A stretch of 64,000 nucleotides of DNA from Gilliamella sp. ESL0441 (lineage in GTDB: Bacteria > Pseudomonadota > Gammaproteobacteria > Enterobacterales > Orbaceae), in the NCBI RefSeq assembly GCF_019469185.1, contig NZ_CP048264.1, positions 2,480,001 through 2,544,000 on the forward strand, given 5' to 3'. Positions within the stretch are counted from its first letter, which is position 1. Every line of letters starts with the position of its first letter. A program made the position numbers and the translations under genes. Under the pieces are notes generated by a model. That model saw only the letters and a program-made list of their open reading frames with translations. It made no database searches and was not told the origin of the DNA. This document shows, piece by piece, positions 43,480-54,221 of this stretch.

Positions 43480-44616
43480 TTATCTGGTAAATTTTTTAAA
43501 TAATAAACAGGCAAATACAATATCTAACACACACAGTGAAATCAGCACTAAAAACGAGCCTAAAACACCGCTTGAATCTAATCCTAAACTAAACAGATAC
43601 GGATAGCCAAATACGCCAATAAAGTAGCTTAAACTAAAAATAGTTAAATAGATACTTCGCTTTTCAGCATCGATGTCTTTAACCATTTGAGTTTGAATTA
43701 ACGGATAAACCAAACCATAACTTATGCCTAATAATGACGACGGTACAATATAAAAAATATTATTTGTCGTAACCAAAAACAGACACAAAGCGATCAACAT
43801 AATGAATAACAAGCCGATCATGGCTAACTGCTGTGACAGTTTTAAAATAAATTTAGCCAGATAGAATCGGGCAAATAATAATGAAAAAGTATAAGAAATA
43901 TAAAATATCGAAAAGTTTAAATTCTTCTCTTTCGCAAACACAAATTGAAAGTTCATCATTGAAATGTAAATACAGGCGCCTAAAAAAACCATTATTAACG
44001 GAATGACCGCATTTGAAGTAACAATGGTTTTCATTACTGGCAAAATCGATAATTTACTGCTATTTTGCTTATTGGATAAGGTTACATTAAAAAATAACCC
44101 ACCGGCTAACAAACTCAACAACACAGCAAACATAAACATATATTCAATAGCAATATTATAATCGAGCAGTGTTTTGACTATCACTGGCGATAATCCGGCG
44201 CCTAACATATTAAATGCCGAAATAAACATAAAATGACGACTTAATTCGGCAGTATTACTGGTTGACGACACCATAATCGGCCCCAACGTATAAATAATCC
44301 CCCACCCTGCACCAAGCAACAAACCTGCAATATAAAGAAAAACACCACCTGTATACAAAATCAATGCGATAGCAAAGGCATAAATTAACGCCCCCATTGC
44401 AGCAATAACATTAGTAGAAACAGATTTCAACACATAAGGAATCGACAAAATCGACGCCACTACCCCAATGATCCCCATTGAAATAATTTCACTCGACATC
44501 ACTAACGAAAGCTTTAAAGTGTCGGTTAAAAATAACGGCAGCGTTAACATCACGCCATAGGCAAAAGAGGTTAAAAAAGAGCCTAAGCAGACTAATTTAA
44601 ATAATTTGTTATTCAT
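43480..44616 (-). CDS. Major facilitator superfamily transporter
   Basis: Inner membrane transporter of about 378 residues with 12 predicted helices; substrate unknown. An AAGGA site precedes the ATG at 44616 (a GTG immediately before is also possible). Charged MFS loop motifs are weak, so it falls outside the sugar-porter group; the pattern suggests a small-molecule efflux or uptake carrier. It is divergent from the lyase operon across 300 bp, so it may be coregulated with it, for example moving the cluster's substrate or product, but this is inference. Confidence 0.7.
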   Translation of the reverse strand: MNNKLFKLVCLGSFLTSFAYGVMLTLPLFLTDTLKLSLVMSSEIISMGIIGVVASILSIPYVLKSVSTNVIAAMGALIYAFAIALILYTGGVFLYIAGLLLGAGWGIIYTLGPIMVSSTSNTAELSRHFMFISAFNMLGAGLSPVIVKTLLDYNIAIEYMFMFAVLLSLLAGGLFFNVTLSNKQNSSKLSILPVMKTIVTSNAVIPLIMVFLGACIYISMMNFQFVFAKEKNLNFSIFYISYTFSLLFARFYLAKFILKLSQQLAMIGLLFIMLIALCLFLVTTNNIFYIVPSSLLGISYGLVYPLIQTQMVKDIDAEKRSIYLTIFSLSYFIGVFGYPYLFSLGLDSSGVLGSFLVLISLCVLDIVFACLLFKKFTR

Positions 44617-44862
44617 CACTATTTATTCCTTTTTATTAAGCAGGCTCACGTTGTCCCCACGATGATAACATCAAAGAGATCAAGTATCGTGCATAATACG
44701 AATAAAAAATAAGAAATTTTGAAAAAATTCCCCTATTTGAGTCTATTCATCAAAACAAAATAAACATTCAACAATCAACTTCCTCAATCGCCCGTGATCA
44801 AATCCCAACAAGCTTAATTCTTTTTAGTTATATCCATAGTCCAAGAGGATATTAGACGCTGT

Positions 44863-44920: not shown

Positions 44921-46282
44921 GTGGCGTCACATGTTATTGATTATTTGATTTTAGGTAATAATTTTAGTACCAGTGAAATGCGAGCGATATGGTCAGAACA
45001 AAATCGCTTAGAAAAGCAAGTTGCTGTAGAAGTCGCACTAGCAAAAGTACAAGGTGAACTAGGTGTCATTCCTTGCGATGCCGCTGATGCAATCGTTGCT
45101 AAGGCCGATGCTTCGAAACTGTCCATTGAACAAATTGCCAAACAAGCTGCAAAAGCCAAGCACTCTTTAATGTCAACGATCAATGCGCTACAAGATCAAG
45201 TTGGCGATGCCGGTCAATTTATTCATTATGGCGCAACCACGCAAGATATTGTCGATACGGCAACCGTTTTACAACTTAAGCAATCATTTGCCATTATTGA
45301 ACGTGACACCAAACTGGTGGCATGTGAATTAAAAAAGTTAGCCAAACAGTATCAATATTTACCTATGGTTGGACGCACTCATGGTATGCAGGCACTTCCT
45401 ACTACTTTTGGGTTTAAACTTGCCGTTTGGTTAGATGAGTTTGTTCGCCATTTACAGCGGTTAAGTGAAATTAAACAGCGGGTTTTAGTGGGTAATATCA
45501 GTGGTGCAATTTGTACTTATGCCGCCATGGGCGAATTAGGGGTACAAGTTGAAGCCAGAACATTAACTTTATTAGACCTCAATACACCCAACATTGGTTG
45601 GCAAGCTGCACGTGATCGGTTTTCCGAATATGCATCCGTCATTGCATTAATCAGTGGAACACTGGGTAAAATGGGTAATGAGTTTTATAACTTAATGCGC
45701 ACTGAAATTAACGAAGTTGAAGAGCCCTTTTCTGACGGAAAAATCGGTTCAACCACTATGCCTCATAAACGAAATCCCGCCGCATTAGAAGGCTTAGCTA
45801 GCTTAACCGCACCATTATTAAAAAGTGTCGCTTTAATTCATGAATCCATGAAAGTTGAACATGAGCGAGACGCCATGAGTTGGCGAGCCGAGTGGATAGC
45901 TCTTCCTGAAATTAATCTCTACCTTTCTTCACAACTACAAACGGCATTAGCTGTACTACAAGGGTTAAAAGTCAATGCTGAACGCATGTTAACTAACTTA
46001 ACCTTACAAAATGGTTTACTGCTGTCTGAAAAAGTGATGTTTGAAATAGGCAAGCGATTAGGCAAACAGACCGCTCATCGTTTGGTTTATCAAAGCGCAA
46101 TGCAAGCTTTTGAGCAAAATAAAACCTTTAAAGCAGTGTTATTAGCTGATTCTATCTTGAATAAAGAGTTTACCGAAGATGAACTCGATAGTTGGTTAGA
46201 ACCCGTTAATTATGTTGGTTTAGCGCCTGAAAAAGTGGAACAAGTAATCCGGTATGCTGATCAAAGTGGAGTCTTAGTATGA
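44921..46282 (+). CDS. Fumarase/aspartase-superfamily lyase, candidate S-(2-succino) lyase
   Basis: Homotetrameric-type C-X lyase of 453 residues in the adenylosuccinate lyase/carboxymuconate cycloisomerase branch; members release fumarate by beta-elimination. Conserved regions: GATTQD at 104-109, GRTHG at 151-155, and the signature loop GSTTMPHKRNP at 276-286 carrying the catalytic Ser. It is not purB itself, judging by divergence and operon partners. It starts at GTG 44921 after GAGGAT and overlaps the GNAT gene by 4 bp. The neighbours (GNAT, cystine-type importer, MmgE/PrpD) match yxe-type clusters in which a 2-succino lyase acts on N-acetyl-S-(2-succino)cysteine. Confidence 0.7.
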   Translation: MASHVIDYLILGNNFSTSEMRAIWSEQNRLEKQVAVEVALAKVQGELGVIPCDAADAIVAKADASKLSIEQIAKQAAKAKHSLMSTINALQDQVGDAGQFIHYGATTQDIVDTATVLQLKQSFAIIERDTKLVACELKKLAKQYQYLPMVGRTHGMQALPTTFGFKLAVWLDEFVRHLQRLSEIKQRVLVGNISGAICTYAAMGELGVQVEARTLTLLDLNTPNIGWQAARDRFSEYASVIALISGTLGKMGNEFYNLMRTEINEVEEPFSDGKIGSTTMPHKRNPAALEGLASLTAPLLKSVALIHESMKVEHERDAMSWRAEWIALPEINLYLSSQLQTALAVLQGLKVNAERMLTNLTLQNGLLLSEKVMFEIGKRLGKQTAHRLVYQSAMQAFEQNKTFKAVLLADSILNKEFTEDELDSWLEPVNYVGLAPEKVEQVIRYADQSGVLV

Positions 46283-46803
46283 CGTTCCGCCTAATGACGC
46301 AAAATGATATCCCAGCTTATCAAACGCTATTGCATAATGCTTATCAAGCAACCCTACAACTTGGTATTCATTTTGCTGCTGCGACAGTTAATCAAAAACA
46401 AATTGCCGATCATATTGAATCAAATGCTGTTTATCTCTATGAAAAACAGGGTAAATTAATTTCAACATTAACGATTCGTTTTCCATGGGGCAATAATCCC
46501 GGGCCTTATGGATTACCGCATTTAGGTTGGTTTGCCACTGACCCACAATATAAAGGTCAAGGCTACGGTCATGCATTATGGGATTTTGTTGAACAACAAA
46601 TTTTAATTAAACAATTAAGACTTCCTGCGGCGACATTAGGAACAGCCGCAAATCATCCATGGTTAGCCACACTTTACATCAACAAAGGTTATAAACCTAT
46701 TGGGCAAGCCGATTTAACCCCTGATCACACCACACTCTATTTTGAAAAAATTTTTAATTATAAAAACTACACTGAATGGAAAAAAAGGAATCACAAACAA
46801 TGA
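46279..46803 (+). CDS. GNAT N-acetyltransferase, YxeL-like
   Basis: Acetyl-CoA-dependent acetyltransferase of 174 residues. The acetyl-CoA pyrophosphate loop appears as DPQYKGQGYGHALWDFVE at about residues 88-105 (Q/RxxGxG/A pattern). Start and stop codons overlap neighbours by 4 bp on both sides, so translation is coupled with the lyase and the binding protein. In the Bacillus yxe operon YxeL N-acetylates S-(2-succino)cysteine before cleavage; the same job is inferred here. Other small amine substrates cannot be excluded. Confidence 0.72.
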   Translation: MTFRLMTQNDIPAYQTLLHNAYQATLQLGIHFAAATVNQKQIADHIESNAVYLYEKQGKLISTLTIRFPWGNNPGPYGLPHLGWFATDPQYKGQGYGHALWDFVEQQILIKQLRLPAATLGTAANHPWLATLYINKGYKPIGQADLTPDHTTLYFEKIFNYKNYTEWKKRNHKQ

Positions 46804-47585
46804 AAACAATCAGAACTATTTTCTCTGCGATACTACTCGCCAGTTTAACATTATTATTCGGATGCGATACAAATAGCCAAGATTCGACCACAAAGCAGCC
46901 GATCATAAGAGTCGGTTCAACCGGTCAAAGTTATCCAAATGGTTATAAACAACAAGATAAATTAATCGGATTTGATGTTGAACTGACAGCAGCCATTGCC
47001 AATGAACTGGGTTATCAAGTCGAATGGGTGGTCGCTGATTTTGGCGGCTTAATGGGACAGTTTGATTCAGGACGTTTAGATACCATTGCCAATGCCGTTG
47101 CAATCACACCTGCTCGCCAAGATAAGTATGATTTTTCTCAGCCATATAGTTTTTATGGTAGTCAGATTGTTACCCATCAAGAAAATAACGATATAAATAC
47201 GTTATCTGATTTTAAAGGTAAAACCATTGCTGGCGTGTTAGGTTCAAATCATATCAATAATTTGAAAAAAGCCTTTCCAAATAATGAAGTGACGATTAAA
47301 ACTTATGAAACCCGTGACGGAGCCATGTATGATACCGAATATCAACGGGTTGAAGGTTATGTTAATTCAAAACCCATCTTACTGGCTGAAATCAAACGTA
47401 AAAATCTTCCATTTAAATTAGTAGGCGAGCCAATAACGATTGAGCAAGTTGCTTTTCCATTTAGTAAAGATGAAAAAGGTCAAGCATTACGTGAAAAGTT
47501 TAATCAAGCTTTGGACAAGTTACGCAACAACGGCACGTTAAAAAATCTTTCGATTAAATATTTTGGTGAAGATATTACCTCATGA
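46800..47585 (+). CDS. Amino acid ABC transporter binding lipoprotein, cystine-like (YxeM-like)
   Basis: Type-3 solute-binding protein of 261 residues starting at ATG 46800 (MKTIRTIFSAILLASL) after AAAAGGAAT. Signal peptide with lipobox LLFGC makes Cys21 or so the lipidated residue. GFDVELTAAIANELGY and the LDTIANAVAITPARQDKYDFSQPY segment, placed where the alpha-amino and carboxylate groups of an amino acid are held, resemble cystine and sulfur-compound binding proteins. It overlaps both neighbours by 4 bp. Ligand inferred as S-(2-succino)cysteine or a related bulky cysteine derivative. Confidence 0.82.
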   Translation: MKTIRTIFSAILLASLTLLFGCDTNSQDSTTKQPIIRVGSTGQSYPNGYKQQDKLIGFDVELTAAIANELGYQVEWVVADFGGLMGQFDSGRLDTIANAVAITPARQDKYDFSQPYSFYGSQIVTHQENNDINTLSDFKGKTIAGVLGSNHINNLKKAFPNNEVTIKTYETRDGAMYDTEYQRVEGYVNSKPILLAEIKRKNLPFKLVGEPITIEQVAFPFSKDEKGQALREKFNQALDKLRNNGTLKNLSIKYFGEDITS

Positions 47586-48253
47586 ACTTTAATGTAAACT
47601 ATTTTTTAAGTGTGTTTCCTCAGATATTACCGTATCTACCGGTCACACTTTTTATTGCAGTGGTGTCAATTTTATTTGCTATGGTGTTAGGTCTGACTAT
47701 CGCATTGTTACGTAATAATAAAATCATCATTGTTGACGCAATTTTTTCGCTGTTTATTTCGCTATTTCGTGGGATTCCCTCGGTCGTATTGCTCTTTATT
47801 ATTTATTACGGTTTACCGCAGATCTTTCCTGTATTAAAGCACATGGGAGCAACAACCGCCGCTATTGTCTGCTTTAGCTTAAAATATTCTGCTTATCTAG
47901 CCGAAATTTTCCGTGCTGGTCTGGCGTCAGTCGACCCAGGACAAAAAGAGGCAGGACTAACCTCGGGACTAAGCACGATTCAGGTTTACCGAAACATTAT
48001 TTTGCCACAAGCATTGGTCAATGCTTTGCCTAATACCGGTAACATGTTTATTTCATTACTCAAAGACTCGTCTGTCGCTTTTTTTGTTGGCGTACAAGAA
48101 CTGCTAGCAGCAGGCAAAATGCTAACGGCGAGCTCCTTTCTCTATTTTGAAACCTATTTAGCGGTCGGCATTGTTTATTGGCTAACGGTTGTTGCTTATT
48201 CATGGCTACAAAAACAGTTAGAACGTAAATTAAGCAAACCGTATTACCGTTAA
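47582..48253 (+). CDS. Amino acid ABC transporter permease (YxeN-like)
   Basis: HisM/GlnP-type permease, 223 residues with five predicted helices. The typical N-terminal PYLPVTLFIAVVSILFAMVLGL, FRGIPSVVLLFIIYYGLPQ and the EAA coupling loop EAGLTSGLSTIQVYRNIILPQAL are all present. Start overlaps the binding-protein stop, and the ATPase follows 11 bp later. A single permease implies a homodimer in the membrane. Confidence 0.92.
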   Translation: MNFNVNYFLSVFPQILPYLPVTLFIAVVSILFAMVLGLTIALLRNNKIIIVDAIFSLFISLFRGIPSVVLLFIIYYGLPQIFPVLKHMGATTAAIVCFSLKYSAYLAEIFRAGLASVDPGQKEAGLTSGLSTIQVYRNIILPQALVNALPNTGNMFISLLKDSSVAFFVGVQELLAAGKMLTASSFLYFETYLAVGIVYWLTVVAYSWLQKQLERKLSKPYYR

Positions 48254-48264
48254 GGAGCAAGCTC

Positions 48265-49017
48265 ATGATTTCTGTATCACATCTGTCTAAACGGTTTGGT
48301 CATCATCAAGTATTAAAAGAGATAAACCTTTATGTAAAACAAGGTGAAGTTGTCGCCATTATTGGGCCTTCAGGCTCAGGTAAATCCACGTTATTACGTT
48401 GTCTGAATTTATTAGAAAAACCCAATACGGGTACAATTCGAATAGGTGATGTCATTCTGGATAGAGAACATTATCGTCATAAAGAAGAAGTACAATTACG
48501 CAAACAATCAGCGATGGTATTTCAACACTATAATTTATTTAAAAACAAAACGGCGTTAGAGAACATTACTTATCCTTTGATTCTGGGTAAAAAAATCAAT
48601 AAAAGCGAAGCCAAACAACAAGGATTAATGCTATTAAAGCGGGTGGGCATGTTACCTTATGCAGACCAATATCCAATAACATTATCCGGCGGGCAACAAC
48701 AACGGGTGGCTATTGCCAGAGCATTAGCGGTTAGACCTAAAGTTCTATTATTTGATGAACCGACATCGGCACTCGATCCAGAGCGTGTACACGAGGTGCT
48801 GCAAGTCATGTTACAGCTTGCTAAAGAAAATATCACGATGATCATTGTTACTCACGAAATGGAATTTGCTAAATATGTTGCTGACCGAATTATCTTTATG
48901 GCAAATGGCGTCATTGTAGAAGAAGGCTATGCTAAAACTCTTATCGATCATCCACAAAACGAGTTAACTCAACGTTTTTTGCGTCAGCTAACCGATGATA
49001 TTAATTTCGAAATTTAA
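48265..49017 (+). CDS. Amino acid ABC transporter ATPase (YxeO-like)
   Basis: GlnQ/HisP-type polar amino acid ATPase, 250 residues. Walker A GPSGSGKST near residue 33, Q-loop VFQHYNLF, signature LSGGQQQRVAIARAL near residue 136, Walker B VLLFDEPTSALDPE, and the switch His in TMIIVTHEMEFAKYVADR. A GAGCA site precedes ATG. It ends the lyase-GNAT-importer operon; a weak GGGGA/TCCCC stem at 49069-49089 lies between it and the convergent MmgE/PrpD gene. Confidence 0.93.
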   Translation: MISVSHLSKRFGHHQVLKEINLYVKQGEVVAIIGPSGSGKSTLLRCLNLLEKPNTGTIRIGDVILDREHYRHKEEVQLRKQSAMVFQHYNLFKNKTALENITYPLILGKKINKSEAKQQGLMLLKRVGMLPYADQYPITLSGGQQQRVAIARALAVRPKVLLFDEPTSALDPERVHEVLQVMLQLAKENITMIIVTHEMEFAKYVADRIIFMANGVIVEEGYAKTLIDHPQNELTQRFLRQLTDDINFEI

Positions 49018-49172
49018 TAAAGAAAAAATTGTTCGCTCACTGAGTGCTTATATTGAGACAAGAAATTGGGGGGATTTTACATCGTCCCCTATTTAGAATT
49101 CACGTAATAGTAAATATCACCTTATTAACAAACTTTAATTTTTATTCTTTTAAGTGAATCAAGATTTTTCAA

Positions 49173-50534
49173 CTATAACTTAACTATATAACGCTTTATA
49201 AAATCGCTGACATCTAACCCTTTTGCAAATGCTTGAATATCTTGGCTTAGCGCTATTGCAGTTGGCTGATCATCAATAGCGTTTACGAGTTTTGCTGTCA
49301 TTTCATTTTGGCTGTAAGGATTCTTTGGTGAGCCTTTGGGAAGGTCGATGCGTTGGCTGATTTTTTGACCGTTATTTAGTAATATCTCAACCACCACATA
49401 ACGACCATTATAGGCTTGAGGATGTGGTGCTAAGGTGATGTGATAACTGCGATGCATTTTTTGCATCAGTTGTTGAATGTTGTCAGCGATTGGCGTTGCC
49501 GAAAATGCCTTAAAATCAGTGGGTAAACCTAATAAAATTAAGGCCAAAATATATTCAGCTGAAAAGCGCCCTTGCTCAGCAAGGGTTGGCTGTTGATAAA
49601 TTAATGCCGCATCACTCTTAGGTGGCGCAAAGTAAAGGGTAATGTTAGCCACATTCTCAACACGAAATTGCGGATGTTGAGAAAGTAATTGTCCGGCATC
49701 CGCGATATAGGCTCCAGCGGAACAAAAACTATAAGTTTTAAACCACAATCCAGGGTCAATTATCTTCCAAGGCTTTGCCCAACTGGTTAAATTCAACCCC
49801 GTATTCCCTTGTCCATACATGGCGAGAAATCCTAAATTTTCATCTAAAAAATTTTGATCTGCTTGTAGTCCTGCTCTTAACCAATCAACAGTTTGGATGG
49901 CATGTTGCGCAGCCAGTCCTGCATGTAAAAATTTTATGGGTGTGCCCATTAACAAGCGCATACCCGAAGCTTGGGTTGCTGCAAGTGCTAATGCTTGCGA
50001 TAAAAAAGGTTCATTATACAAATAACAAATTGCGGCTGTGGCTGCTATACCACCAAGCGTAATAGTGGCATGCCATCCTTTTTCATAATGTTGTGGATTG
50101 ACGCTTTTACCCAGCAACGCCATGACTTCAATACCAATAACATAAGCCGTTAAAAATCGCCGTCCATCAATCTGGAATGGCATATGATCTAATCGAATAC
50201 TGGCAAACAGTGCCGATAAAATCACCGCTGAAGGATGGCCTCGTATATCTGAATGAACATCATCATAATCTAAACAGTGGGCTTGAAAACCATTGAATAA
50301 TGCCGCTTGACGTGGTGTAGCTAACTTTTTTTGACCAATCAGCCAAGACCGCTCATGCCCCCCTTCTTCTTTTATCCAAGCGAGTAATCTTTGAACATTC
50401 ATATCCTGACGAGCTTGTAAACAACATGCAAAATAATCGACGATGCCATTTATCGCATTATTAATAACGCAGGAATCATTAAGAACAGGGGTATTTTTAA
50501 TTAACAAGCATAATTGTTGGTTTAAGTTCATCAT
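49173..50534 (-). CDS. MmgE/PrpD family protein, YxeQ-like or iminodisuccinate-epimerase-like
   Basis: Cytosolic member of the 2-methylcitrate dehydratase/iminodisuccinate epimerase family. With start ATG 50534 it has 453 residues; ATG 50546 and a TTG further up are alternatives. The N-terminal helical domain carries LDYDDVHSDIRGHPSAVI, the family active-site region, and the C-terminal lid domain follows from about residue 260. No prpBC methylcitrate genes are near, which argues against propionate metabolism. Its convergent position next to the lyase-GNAT-importer operon matches YxeQ of Bacillus, whose role is unsettled. Confidence 0.8.
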   Translation of the reverse strand: MMNLNQQLCLLIKNTPVLNDSCVINNAINGIVDYFACCLQARQDMNVQRLLAWIKEEGGHERSWLIGQKKLATPRQAALFNGFQAHCLDYDDVHSDIRGHPSAVILSALFASIRLDHMPFQIDGRRFLTAYVIGIEVMALLGKSVNPQHYEKGWHATITLGGIAATAAICYLYNEPFLSQALALAATQASGMRLLMGTPIKFLHAGLAAQHAIQTVDWLRAGLQADQNFLDENLGFLAMYGQGNTGLNLTSWAKPWKIIDPGLWFKTYSFCSAGAYIADAGQLLSQHPQFRVENVANITLYFAPPKSDAALIYQQPTLAEQGRFSAEYILALILLGLPTDFKAFSATPIADNIQQLMQKMHRSYHITLAPHPQAYNGRYVVVEILLNNGQKISQRIDLPKGSPKNPYSQNEMTAKLVNAIDDQPTAIALSQDIQAFAKGLDVSDFIKRYIVKL

Positions 50535-50747
50535 ATATTCACTCATCAAACTATCATAAATAGACTTGACCAAAATAGCGTAAAATCAGCGTTAAGTTAA
50601 AGATTATCTAGTTATATTTTAATAACTAAACTTAATACTATTGCATCAAGCAGTCGTCTTTTTCCCTTCATATAACTATTTTTGACTCATCATTAGTATG
50701 CTAATATAGATGACAAATGATTAACCTAAACTTTCACTTATCTAATT

Positions 50748-51865: not shown

Positions 51866-52756
51866 ATGTGCTATATTGGTCGTTTTGCTCCCTCACCATC
51901 CGGACCATTACATTTTGGTTCGTTGGTGACGGCTCTCGGTAGCTATTTACAAGCTAAAGCTTATCAAGGTAAATGGTTAGTCCGTATTGAAGATATCGAT
52001 CCACCACGCGAAGTCAAAGGTGCATCCTCACTCATTTTAAAAACATTAGAAATATTCAATCTGTTTTGGGATGATGATGTTCTATACCAATCAACATGTA
52101 GTGAACGTTATCAATCGGTATTGCAATCATTACTATCCAAACAGCAAGCCTACTATTGCGACTGTTCAAGACAACGAATCCATCATCTTACCAATCATAT
52201 TTATGATGGCTTTTGCCGTCAGCGAAATTTAACCCCGAACCACCAGCAGCATTTAGCCATTCGGTTAAAGCAAACCCATCCAATCTTTGAATTTGAAGAT
52301 AACATTCTTGGATTACAAACAGTTGAACCAGCAAGTGCGCAAGAAGATTTTATTATTCACCGAAAAGATGGACTATTTGCTTATAATTTGGTCGTCGTTC
52401 TGGATGATCATCAGCAAGGCATTACCGAAATTGTTCGTGGCGCTGATTTGCTACCGGTTACCGCAAAACAGATATCACTTTATCAACAGTTAGGCTTTAC
52501 CGTTCCAACCTATTGCCATTTACCACTGGTCTTAGATCATAATGGTAATAAGCTGTCGAAACAAAATCATGCTAAACCAATCGAATTGGATAATCCAACC
52601 TCGCTAACCATTCAAGCTCTGCAATTTTTAGGACAACAGATACCACAAGATTGGCAAGATGCAACCCAACAACAATTGTTAGATTGGGCAATAGCACATT
52701 GGCAGCTTTCAACTATCCCGAAACAAAATGCAGTATTAACCACCAATGTAAGATAA
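51866..52756 (+). CDS. gluQ: Glutamyl-Q tRNA(Asp) synthetase
   Basis: Truncated GluRS paralogue that attaches glutamate to the queuosine base of tRNA-Asp. 296 residues, lacking the anticodon-binding domain. The nucleotide-binding motif reads PSGPLHFGSL near residue 11 (HIGH variant), a zinc site is formed by YYCDCS and the downstream Tyr/Cys of IYDGFCRQR, and the KLSKQN motif near residue 231 replaces KMSKS. Its 3' end overlaps the moaA 3' end by 21 bp. Confidence 0.95.
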   Translation: MCYIGRFAPSPSGPLHFGSLVTALGSYLQAKAYQGKWLVRIEDIDPPREVKGASSLILKTLEIFNLFWDDDVLYQSTCSERYQSVLQSLLSKQQAYYCDCSRQRIHHLTNHIYDGFCRQRNLTPNHQQHLAIRLKQTHPIFEFEDNILGLQTVEPASAQEDFIIHRKDGLFAYNLVVVLDDHQQGITEIVRGADLLPVTAKQISLYQQLGFTVPTYCHLPLVLDHNGNKLSKQNHAKPIELDNPTSLTIQALQFLGQQIPQDWQDATQQQLLDWAIAHWQLSTIPKQNAVLTTNVR

Positions 52757-53710
52757 GTTAGGCATCATACCCACTAGATTATCGTGTAATCGATGTTTTT
52801 CTGGTTTGACTACCAATGAAGCAAGAATGCGTGATTTAAGTTGTGCTTTTTGGTCTGCACTGACCAGTAAATCACGTAAATCAATCGCCGAATCACCAAA
52901 CAGACAATAGTGTAACTGCCCAATTGATGACACTCGCAATCGATTGCAACTTTTACAAAAATCTTTTGAATATGGCATGATAAGACCAATTTTACCTTGA
53001 TAATCATCATGCGCATAAACTTTTGCCGGCCCTGATAGAGCTTGCTTCGGTTGTAACTGCCAACCTTGCTCAATTAATTGACGTTCAATTGATTGACCAG
53101 CTAAGTGATAACGATGAAATAGATTACGGCTTTCATTGGTTTCCATAAGCTCGATAAAACGCAACTCAACTGGTCTGTATTTAATCCAAGATAAATAGTC
53201 TGATAAATGGCTATTGAGATCTTTCATTAAAACAGTATTAATCTTCACTTTCGGTATGCCAATTTCTAACGTTTTTTCAACGCCTGCAATCAGCTCTTTC
53301 AGCTTATCTTGACCTGTGATCAGTTTAAATATATGAGGAGAAAAACTATCTATACTAATGTTGATTGAATTTAGACCAGCTTGATGCCAATGGTTGATAT
53401 TTTTTAATAACCGTGTGCCATTGGTCGTGATTGCAAGCTCACGAATACAGGGATAAGCCGAAATAACCGACAAAATTTCGGTAAAATCTCGACGTAATGT
53501 CGGTTCACCACCTGTAAGTCGAATTTTATGAACACCAAGCTCAGCAAATGTTGACACAATATTATCAATTTCATTAAGCGATAAAAAATGGTGAAGCTTA
53601 TTCGGATGATAACCATTGGGTAAACAATACTGACATTTAAAATTACATAGTTCGGTAATCGACAAGCGCAGATATTGAAATCGACGCTGATAATTATCCA
53701 CTAATTGCAT
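52736..53710 (-). CDS. moaA: GTP 3',8-cyclase MoaA
   Basis: Radical-SAM enzyme for the first step of molybdenum cofactor synthesis, forming 3',8-cyclo-H2-GTP from GTP. 324 residues. The SAM cluster motif CNFKCQYC gives Cys22, Cys26 and Cys29; the second cluster is in CKSCNRLRVSS and the later C of LHYCLFG; the C-terminal Gly-Gly is present. moaB, moaC, moaD and moaE are not adjacent, so the gene is separated from its usual operon. A structured leader precedes it. Confidence 0.95.
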   Translation of the reverse strand: MQLVDNYQRRFQYLRLSITELCNFKCQYCLPNGYHPNKLHHFLSLNEIDNIVSTFAELGVHKIRLTGGEPTLRRDFTEILSVISAYPCIRELAITTNGTRLLKNINHWHQAGLNSINISIDSFSPHIFKLITGQDKLKELIAGVEKTLEIGIPKVKINTVLMKDLNSHLSDYLSWIKYRPVELRFIELMETNESRNLFHRYHLAGQSIERQLIEQGWQLQPKQALSGPAKVYAHDDYQGKIGLIMPYSKDFCKSCNRLRVSSIGQLHYCLFGDSAIDLRDLLVSADQKAQLKSRILASLVVKPEKHRLHDNLVGMMPNLSYIGG

Positions 53711-53820
53711 ATAAAAAAAACACCTTATCCAAATCGGGAAGCATAGCCATTTCTGCGCTATACCGCGGCTAATTCACCATATGAAACAGGCCAAGGCAAC
53801 ACTTAGGTGAAAAAGCTTCA
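53711..53820 (-). promoter_or_regulatory. Structured moaA leader, possible Moco riboswitch
   Basis: Just upstream of moaA lies a GC-rich island with nested stems: TTCACC/GGTGAA at 53773-53778 and 53806-53811, and TAGCC/GGCTA at 53744-53748 and 53767-53771, the second close to the ribosome-binding region. Gammaproteobacterial moaA leaders often carry a molybdenum-cofactor riboswitch. I cannot confirm the consensus by eye. The remaining gap, 53821-54209, is AT-rich and holds only the ppnN promoter region. Confidence 0.42.
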
Positions 53821-54221
53821 GAGTTTGGTTTAGTCTAACATAGACAATATTTTTTGACTATAATCAATTAATCAATTCGAACATTCTGAATAAAATTCTA
53901 AGGTTAAGTTGATTCATCACTGTTTTCACCATTCTCAACTATTTAGAATAACAATTACTGCTTTCTCAACGATTATTCGCTTTAAATTAATCATTTAGCA
54001 CAACAATATTAATTGATTTATTCACATTCAAATAAAGTCAGAGGTATATTAATATCAAATAAATTTAATTATGATAAATCAATCCTTTTGCTGTATTTCA
54101 ATTATTCAATAGGATAATTACGATAAAATTGAAAAAAGTTCATTTTATAAACTTTACTTATTCAATCTGTTTGAGTATATAATAACTCCTTTGTCGATAA
54201 AACCGTCAAATGGAGGTTGTG

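Follow-up and report, generated by a model that had tools for sequence, protein, structure and literature searches.

We analysed a 64,000-nucleotide stretch of DNA from Gilliamella sp. ESL0441 (hereafter the window), which comes from a complete genome of 2.75 Mb (99.98% complete; contig NZ_CP048264.1, bases 2480001-2544000) and carries a six-gene cluster that very probably serves the uptake and lysis of S-(2-succino)cysteine (2SC). Five plus-strand genes code for a lyase of the fumarase/aspartase superfamily, a GNAT acetyltransferase, and the substrate-binding protein (SBP), permease and ATPase of an ABC importer; the sixth, coding for an MmgE/PrpD protein, converges on this operon at a distance of 155 bp (Table 1). 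A sequence-only reading had earlier placed these six genes and assigned their families, and both are confirmed, the families by Pfam and NCBIfam models. Its description of an overlapping operon also holds, because the lyase and GNAT genes overlap by 4 bp, the GNAT and SBP genes by 28 bp as listed (4 bp with the likelier SBP start), and the SBP and permease genes by 4 bp, with an 11-bp gap before the ATPase gene. An M20 deacetylase gene of the YxeP type, which is typical of such loci though not obligatory, was not found in the window cluster.

Table 1. Genes of the predicted 2SC uptake and lysis cluster (positions in the window)
Feature	Coordinates	Strand	Remarks
S-(2-succino) lyase (2SL) candidate	44921..46282	+	453 aa, GTG start; Lyase_1 + ADSL_C (Pfam/NCBIfam)
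GNAT N-acetyltransferase, putative YxeL (ScmL) role	46279..46803	+	Pfam PF00583/PF13508
Substrate-binding lipoprotein (SBP_bac_3), putative YxeM role	46776..47585, likely start 46800	+	PF00497; lipobox LLFGC
ABC permease, putative YxeN role	47582..48253	+	PF00528 (BPD_transp_1)
ABC ATPase, putative YxeO role	48265..49017	+	PF00005 (ABC_tran)
MmgE/PrpD protein, putative YxeQ role	49173..50573, likely start ATG at 50534	-	PF03972+PF19305

Hillmann et al. (2022; PMC9706529) described loci of the yxe type that have an S-(2-succino) lyase (2SL) in place of yxeK. The 2SL enzymes of Dickeya dadantii (E0SKP1) and E. italicus (E6LDH5) complement B. subtilis yxeK and split N-acetyl-S-(2-succino)cysteine (2SNAC) into fumarate and N-acetylcysteine. 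They prefer the acetylated substrate, a preference explained as a brake on synthesis, and accept several small thiols (PMC9706529). The sequence-only reading had described this literature correctly. The 2SL, YxeL-like, YxeMNO-like and YxeQ-like members of the 2SL-type scm/yxe locus are all present in the window. With the B. subtilis scm operon (yxeKLMNOPQ) the window cluster shares the acetyltransferase, the importer, a YxeQ-like protein and the acetylate-break-deacetylate strategy, whereas scm contains the YxeK monooxygenase and YxeP, and the window an oxygen-independent lyase and no YxeP in the cluster. The order lyase-GNAT-SBP-permease-ATPase is the same as in the Dickeya 2SL locus (D. dadantii 2SL, E0SKP1; PMC9706529), but the Dickeya loci that we inspected end in an M20 gene and have no clustered MmgE gene, while the window has MmgE and no M20. 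Four Pasteurellaceae loci (L104, L112, L128 and L129, from Pasteurella langaaensis, a metagenome-assembled genome, Haemophilus seminalis and A. actinomycetemcomitans) show lyase-GNAT-SBP-permease-ATPase-MmgE in one direction, with lyases 73-74% identical to that of the window; M20 follows MmgE in these clusters, whereas MmgE is inverted in Gilliamella.

The same arrangement recurs across genomes. A scan of genome contigs gave 79 distinct loci (from the best 80 of 127 candidates), and neighbours were counted in a region reaching from 2.5 kb ahead of the lyase start to 7.5 kb beyond it, leaving out importer matches below 45% identity and ATPases on the minus strand. In 69 of the 79 listed loci the lyase is of a close kind, 57-98% identical to that of the window. 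A GNAT gene adjoins the lyase in all 69, the three importer genes follow it in the same direction in 59, an M20 gene lies within the cluster in 47 and an MmgE gene in 43. No GNAT, importer, M20 or MmgE gene was found beside the distant-kind lyases (42-46% identical) of the other 10 listed loci, three of which have little flanking sequence. The gene arrangement is not due to chance. The order lyase-GNAT-SBP-permease-ATPase-M20 is shared by eight Dickeya loci and by that of D. oryzae. Nine enterobacterial 2SL-type loci (L086, L091, L092, L109, L111, L116, L117, L119 and L123) carry lyase-GNAT-M20-MmgE without an amino-acid importer, and have an ABC system of another type nearby on the opposite strand (ATPase 47-49% and permease 27-30% identical to those of the window). 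Two Candidatus Symbiopectobacterium clusters are decaying, with a split SBP gene in L077 and split permease, ATPase and M20 genes in L078.

The lyase itself shares 98% identity with an NCBI protein of Gilliamella sp. wkB308 (Orbaceae), and is 75% identical to its Pectobacterium counterparts and 73-74% identical to those of Dickeya, with the same gene order in both genera; the Dickeya proteins compared are genus-mates of the assayed enzyme rather than E0SKP1 or E6LDH5 themselves. All nine Dickeya genomes examined have a single lyase copy at 73-74%. The window lyase carries the signature loop GSTTMPHKRNP at residue 276, which matches the pattern of the fumarase/aspartase superfamily (a loop motif that we take to be GSSxMPxKxN). 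In a tree of 60 lyases, it forms one clade with 35 others that have a GNAT neighbour (support 97/98). This 36-member clade was recovered in 99% of 200 bootstrap trees and takes in the Dickeya, Bacillota and window proteins, with both PurB types, ArgH, four PcaB-like lyases, and alphaproteobacterial and Chloroflexi lyases falling outside. A firm grouping with PurB, cycloisomerase or another characterised lyase, which would have told against the sequence-only reading, was not seen in this sample, in which PcaB is represented by PcaB-like lyases rather than a proven one, EDDS lyase and the E. italicus 2SL are missing, some branches are long (none of them the window's) and the deeper forks outside the clade are weak. 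The E. italicus 2SL was found neither among the 79 listed loci nor in the best 120 of 7968 protein-search rows. D. dadantii itself is named in none of the rows listed by the contig scan or by the Dickeya protein search. At twenty lyase positions, 35 or more of the 36 clade rows have the same residue, which is shared by no more than two of the 24 other rows; examples are N14, A73, F165, M259, T296, P298, M319 and Q338. The clade, the gene order and the 73-74% identity support the window lyase as an ortholog of the 2SL kind, that is, a fresh member of an enzyme kind already known.

Relatives of another kind, 37-39% identical to the window lyase, occur in some of the same genera. In Pectobacterium, one is accompanied by a GntR/UTRA regulator and a DASS anion symporter (L186:6532-10416), and L184, L185 and L187, in Dickeya and genome G208, look alike in arrangement (families were scanned for L186 only). 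Lyases of the L186 type are PcaB-like by score yet below the cut-off. In two of the nine Dickeya genomes, a second lyase (37%) beside a GntR-like regulator and a transporter is a different gene.

The other operon proteins resemble their counterparts in these clusters to varying degrees. The GNAT and SBP proteins are 46% and 64% identical, respectively, to those of a Dickeya cluster (L180), the permease is 61-65% and the ATPase 67-70% identical to Dickeya and Pectobacterium proteins, and the best NCBIfam matches of the SBP, permease and ATPase, all below cut-off, are to a cystine SBP, a cystine permease and TcyN, respectively. Together with the 97/98 clade, the gene order and the lyase identity of 73% to Dickeya, these similarities favour the proposal of the sequence-only reading that the locus is a lyase variant of succinated-cysteine salvage, and we consider it very probable that the cluster is a 2SL-type scm/yxe unit for the uptake and lysis of 2SC. 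The ABC importer would take up 2SC, the GNAT protein, in the YxeL role, would N-acetylate it to 2SNAC, and the lyase would split 2SNAC by beta-elimination into fumarate and N-acetylcysteine, from which an amidohydrolase encoded elsewhere in the genome would release cysteine. These activities, the substrate and the direction of the route are what we infer from the observed gene content, orthology and clade. The MmgE/PrpD protein would most likely epimerise the succinyl C2 of 2SC or 2SNAC, making both non-enzymatic diastereomers usable.

The MmgE/PrpD gene is closely associated with the lyase gene. Among 44 Orbaceae genomes (five of them less than 90% complete), it is present in 29 of the 30 that have a lyase match and was found in none of the 14 others. 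The lone lyase-positive genome that lacks it (G025) holds only a broken lyase piece of ~195 residues with a stop, and another (G032) has a partial lyase match. In Zophobihabitans, and in other Orbaceae that do not belong to the main Gilliamella group, the gene has the same direction as the operon; in Gilliamella it is inverted. This co-occurrence, combined with the in-line orientation in some Orbaceae, indicates that MmgE is part of the unit. Against solved structures, the window protein scored 325 bits with 7BRA ("B. subtilis IRG1"), 321 with 7E9D, 151 with IDS epimerase and 74 with cis-aconitate decarboxylases. We take 7BRA to be YxeQ, judging from its 445 residues and from B. subtilis having one other such protein (MmgE). 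In a column-by-column comparison with 2HP3, window residues H99, D102, R111, H113, Y163, H168, K214 and K279 make up the full published catalytic set, and H85, D88, H99, Y145, H150, K198 and K266 of IDS epimerase are all matched (by H99, D102, H113, Y163, H168, K214 and K279), so that the His/Tyr base pair of the epimerases is kept. An alignment of 45 MmgE rows (the window, 43 from the 69 listed loci and one outside locus) has Tyr at this position in 43; the other two are a row gapped throughout and the outside locus (L053), with H.

That outside locus (L053:6844-12187), from G208 in the same order as Gilliamella, codes for a DcuC C4-dicarboxylate carrier, a cystathionine beta-lyase-like PLP (pyridoxal phosphate) enzyme (below cut-off), a class-I lyase 44% identical to that of the window, and an MmgE/PrpD protein without the epimerase Tyr and Arg. 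Speculatively, this cluster could process a sulfur-succinyl compound without acetylation, for instance by a beta-lyase step to mercaptosuccinate followed by release of fumarate and sulfide.

When a thiol adds to fumarate, a new stereocentre arises, and lyases of the fumarase/aspartase superfamily eliminate stereospecifically; an epimerase would therefore enlarge the usable adduct pool. YxeQ-like genes occur both with YxeK, whose product is oxaloacetate, and with 2SL, whose product is fumarate, thus suggesting a shared dicarboxylate substrate, and 2SC and 2SNAC are the only four-carbon dicarboxylates common to the two routes. Known MmgE/PrpD substrates all share a four-carbon 1,4-dicarboxylate, and another protein of the family isomerises (S)- to (R)-methylsuccinate (PMC12290011). 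The published catalytic residues of the IDS epimerase and this isomerase, including the His and Tyr bases, are shared by the window protein, although IDS epimerase scores only 151 bits, the isomerase is likened by description only, and the 2SC/2SNAC substrate is our reading. YxeQ is listed as of "unknown function" in 2SC breakdown (PMC9706529). Based on the conservation of the catalytic residues, we tentatively propose, at a little less than even confidence, that YxeQ-type MmgE/PrpD proteins epimerise 2SC or 2SNAC at the succinyl C2, coupling a stereospecific breaker (2SL or YxeK) to a mixture of diastereomers.

The best surviving competitor, which we nevertheless regard as improbable, gives the MmgE/PrpD protein a role unrelated to 2SC, as a cis-aconitate decarboxylase ("IRG1") or a 2-methylcitrate dehydratase. 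Its basis is that 7BRA was published as B. subtilis IRG1 (PMC7347537). But the active site of 7BRA was reported in the same paper to match IDS epimerase fully, including H99 and Y145, and the Tyr at the IDS base position to be absent in mammalian IRG1 (PMC7347537), whereas the window protein has the epimerase His/Tyr pair. The B. subtilis protein has also been placed outside the decarboxylase clusters, with no evidence of decarboxylase activity and its function given as undetermined (PMC12290011). The window protein reaches only 74 bits with decarboxylases, against 151 with IDS epimerase and 325 with 7BRA (a test by scores rather than by an MmgE tree), and the presence of MmgE genes in the cluster of 43 of the 69 listed 2SL-type loci also speaks against this reading.

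Slightly less probable still is the salvage of another adduct, such as cysteine S-alkylated by itaconate or maleate, in which case the substrate of the MmgE protein would be that same adduct or an unsaturated C4-C5 diacid. The breadth of 2SL enzymes toward small thiols (PMC9706529) would permit this, and the MmgE/PrpD family includes both cis-aconitate decarboxylases and the methylsuccinate isomerase (PMC12290011). However, the lyase, SBP and GNAT proteins are closely orthologous to those of a genus with an assayed 2SL, and the MmgE scores again lie nearer IDS epimerase than the decarboxylases.

Several points weigh against the proposed 2SC route, some of which concern the deacetylation step. 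No M20 deacetylase gene is present in the cluster of any of the 21 Orbaceae loci among the 69 listed (19 with MmgE inverted and two with MmgE in line), nor was an M20 gene found in Orbaceae loci L054-L058, L060 and L061, some of which come from the same genomes as the 21. The Gilliamella genome codes for eight M20 proteins elsewhere. The best of them (G000:C1:560350-561486) is 48% identical to the M20 protein of a Pectobacterium cluster and scores 339.5 bits with B. subtilis YxeP (PDB 1YSJ); two others reach 37-40% identity. Copies of the 48% protein (at least 75% identical) occur in 21 of the 44 Orbaceae genomes, namely in 15 of the 30 lyase-positive and six of the 14 lyase-negative ones, with relatives of about 35-41% in the remaining genomes. 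This distribution suggests that it is not tied to the lyase pathway, and we rejected it as a coupled deacetylase partner for lack of co-occurrence with the lyase. It adjoins a MetNIQ-like importer whose MetI passes its cut-off (L059, G000:C1:557571-561486), and the two are perhaps an N-acetyl-amino-acid salvage unit of their own, patchy in Orbaceae. The M20 protein of L038, which we take to be ArgE-like, is a possible candidate for the deacetylase. In B. subtilis, ScmP (YxeP), YhaA and YtnL deacetylate N-acetylcysteine redundantly (PMC12757645).

Further contrary points concern the epimerase and the lyase. Of the 69 listed loci, 26 have no MmgE gene in the cluster, including all the Pectobacterium and Dickeya loci seen; in these genera, where the cluster was the region examined, either an epimerase is not needed or it is encoded outside the cluster. 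In one Orbaceae genome (G042), a stop interrupts the MmgE gene while the lyase is whole. A word search on stereochemistry gave no match in the available text of PMC9706529. Our literature search found no paper that links YxeQ/MmgE to succinocysteine epimerisation, and the words yxe and succinocysteine do not occur in the searched text of PMC12290011. The function of an enzyme of the fumarase/aspartase superfamily is not safely read from its sequence, and the published 2SL equilibrium strongly favours synthesis (PMC9706529).

The last point could mean that the lyase runs mainly toward synthesis, with fumarate capping small thiols for storage or excretion in an anoxic gut, and the lack of a deacetylase in the cluster would agree with such a role. 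Yet an importer and an acetyltransferase point to uptake and breakdown, and the preference for acetylated substrates has been read in print as a synthesis brake (PMC9706529); we consider this direction very unlikely.

The lyase relatives are named adenylosuccinate lyase by NCBI, and some of those in the Dickeya search 3-carboxy-cis,cis-muconate cycloisomerase. The former name is probably due to the TIGR00928 purB model (NCBIfam), which the window lyase passes with 385.9 against a cut-off of 326.2. But some lyases that belong to neither the PurB nor the 2SL group pass this model too (355-361 bits), and the scores of true PurBs are higher, at 468-599. A separate PurB (788 bits, cut-off 446) and a separate ArgH (858 bits, cut-off 657) are encoded elsewhere in the genome. 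With the two PcaB models, the window lyase stays below the cut-offs (388 vs 595 and 271 vs 356). PurB identity is thus rejected on the tree, the PurB elsewhere in the genome and the model scores. PcaB identity is rejected on the model scores, for a tree that includes no proven PcaB but in which four PcaB-like lyases fall outside the clade. The least credible alternative is therefore a role of the lyase as a second adenylosuccinate lyase or as a 3-carboxymuconate cycloisomerase, with incidental neighbours, given also the GNAT gene adjoining all 69 listed close relatives.

Among the surroundings of the cluster, an MFS transporter gene (43480-44619, minus strand), divergent from the operon, was rejected as a part of the system, being present in only one (L108) of the 81 loci scanned; it is probably a local insertion, with L108 as the nearest relative. 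A promoter scan gave 16 matches, compared with 20.5 in shuffled sequences. Between 40000 and 54000, no RNA element was found near the operon, and the one match in this range is a Moco (molybdenum cofactor) riboswitch farther away (53705-53835, minus strand; above the Rfam gathering score), which lies ahead of moaA (52736-53710; above the TIGR02666 cut-off).

The complete Gilliamella genome has no match to PF01507 (presumably CysD/CysH), whereas all 14 controls have matches. Sulfate reduction via CysDNCH therefore appears to be absent, which implies a need for organic or reduced sulfur, and the salvage of organic sulfur would matter in such a genome. We take the habitat of Gilliamella to be the bee gut, to which an oxygen-independent lyase is suited. 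The oxygen independence of the lyase route has been discussed in general terms, and the distribution of 2SL orthologs was called unclear in 2022 (PMC9706529). Orbaceae are a host group that is not named in the available text of the 2SL papers (PMC9706529 and PMC12757645), and our literature search found no paper that joins Gilliamella and succinocysteine. Annotation hardly separates 2SL enzymes from PurB; the clade, the synteny and the 20 diagnostic positions offer a means of recognising them. Overall, our analysis places probable 2SC salvage in a bee-gut symbiont without the PF01507 sulfate-assimilation gene, and the residue pattern of its MmgE/PrpD protein suggests a role, open to testing, for YxeQ, the one member of the pathway that lacks an explanation. 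If this function is true, the YxeQ type would be the counterpart of IDS epimerase, which acts ahead of a C-N lyase, and the Gilliamella epimerase would belong to a route of sulfur salvage that replaces the missing sulfate assimilation.

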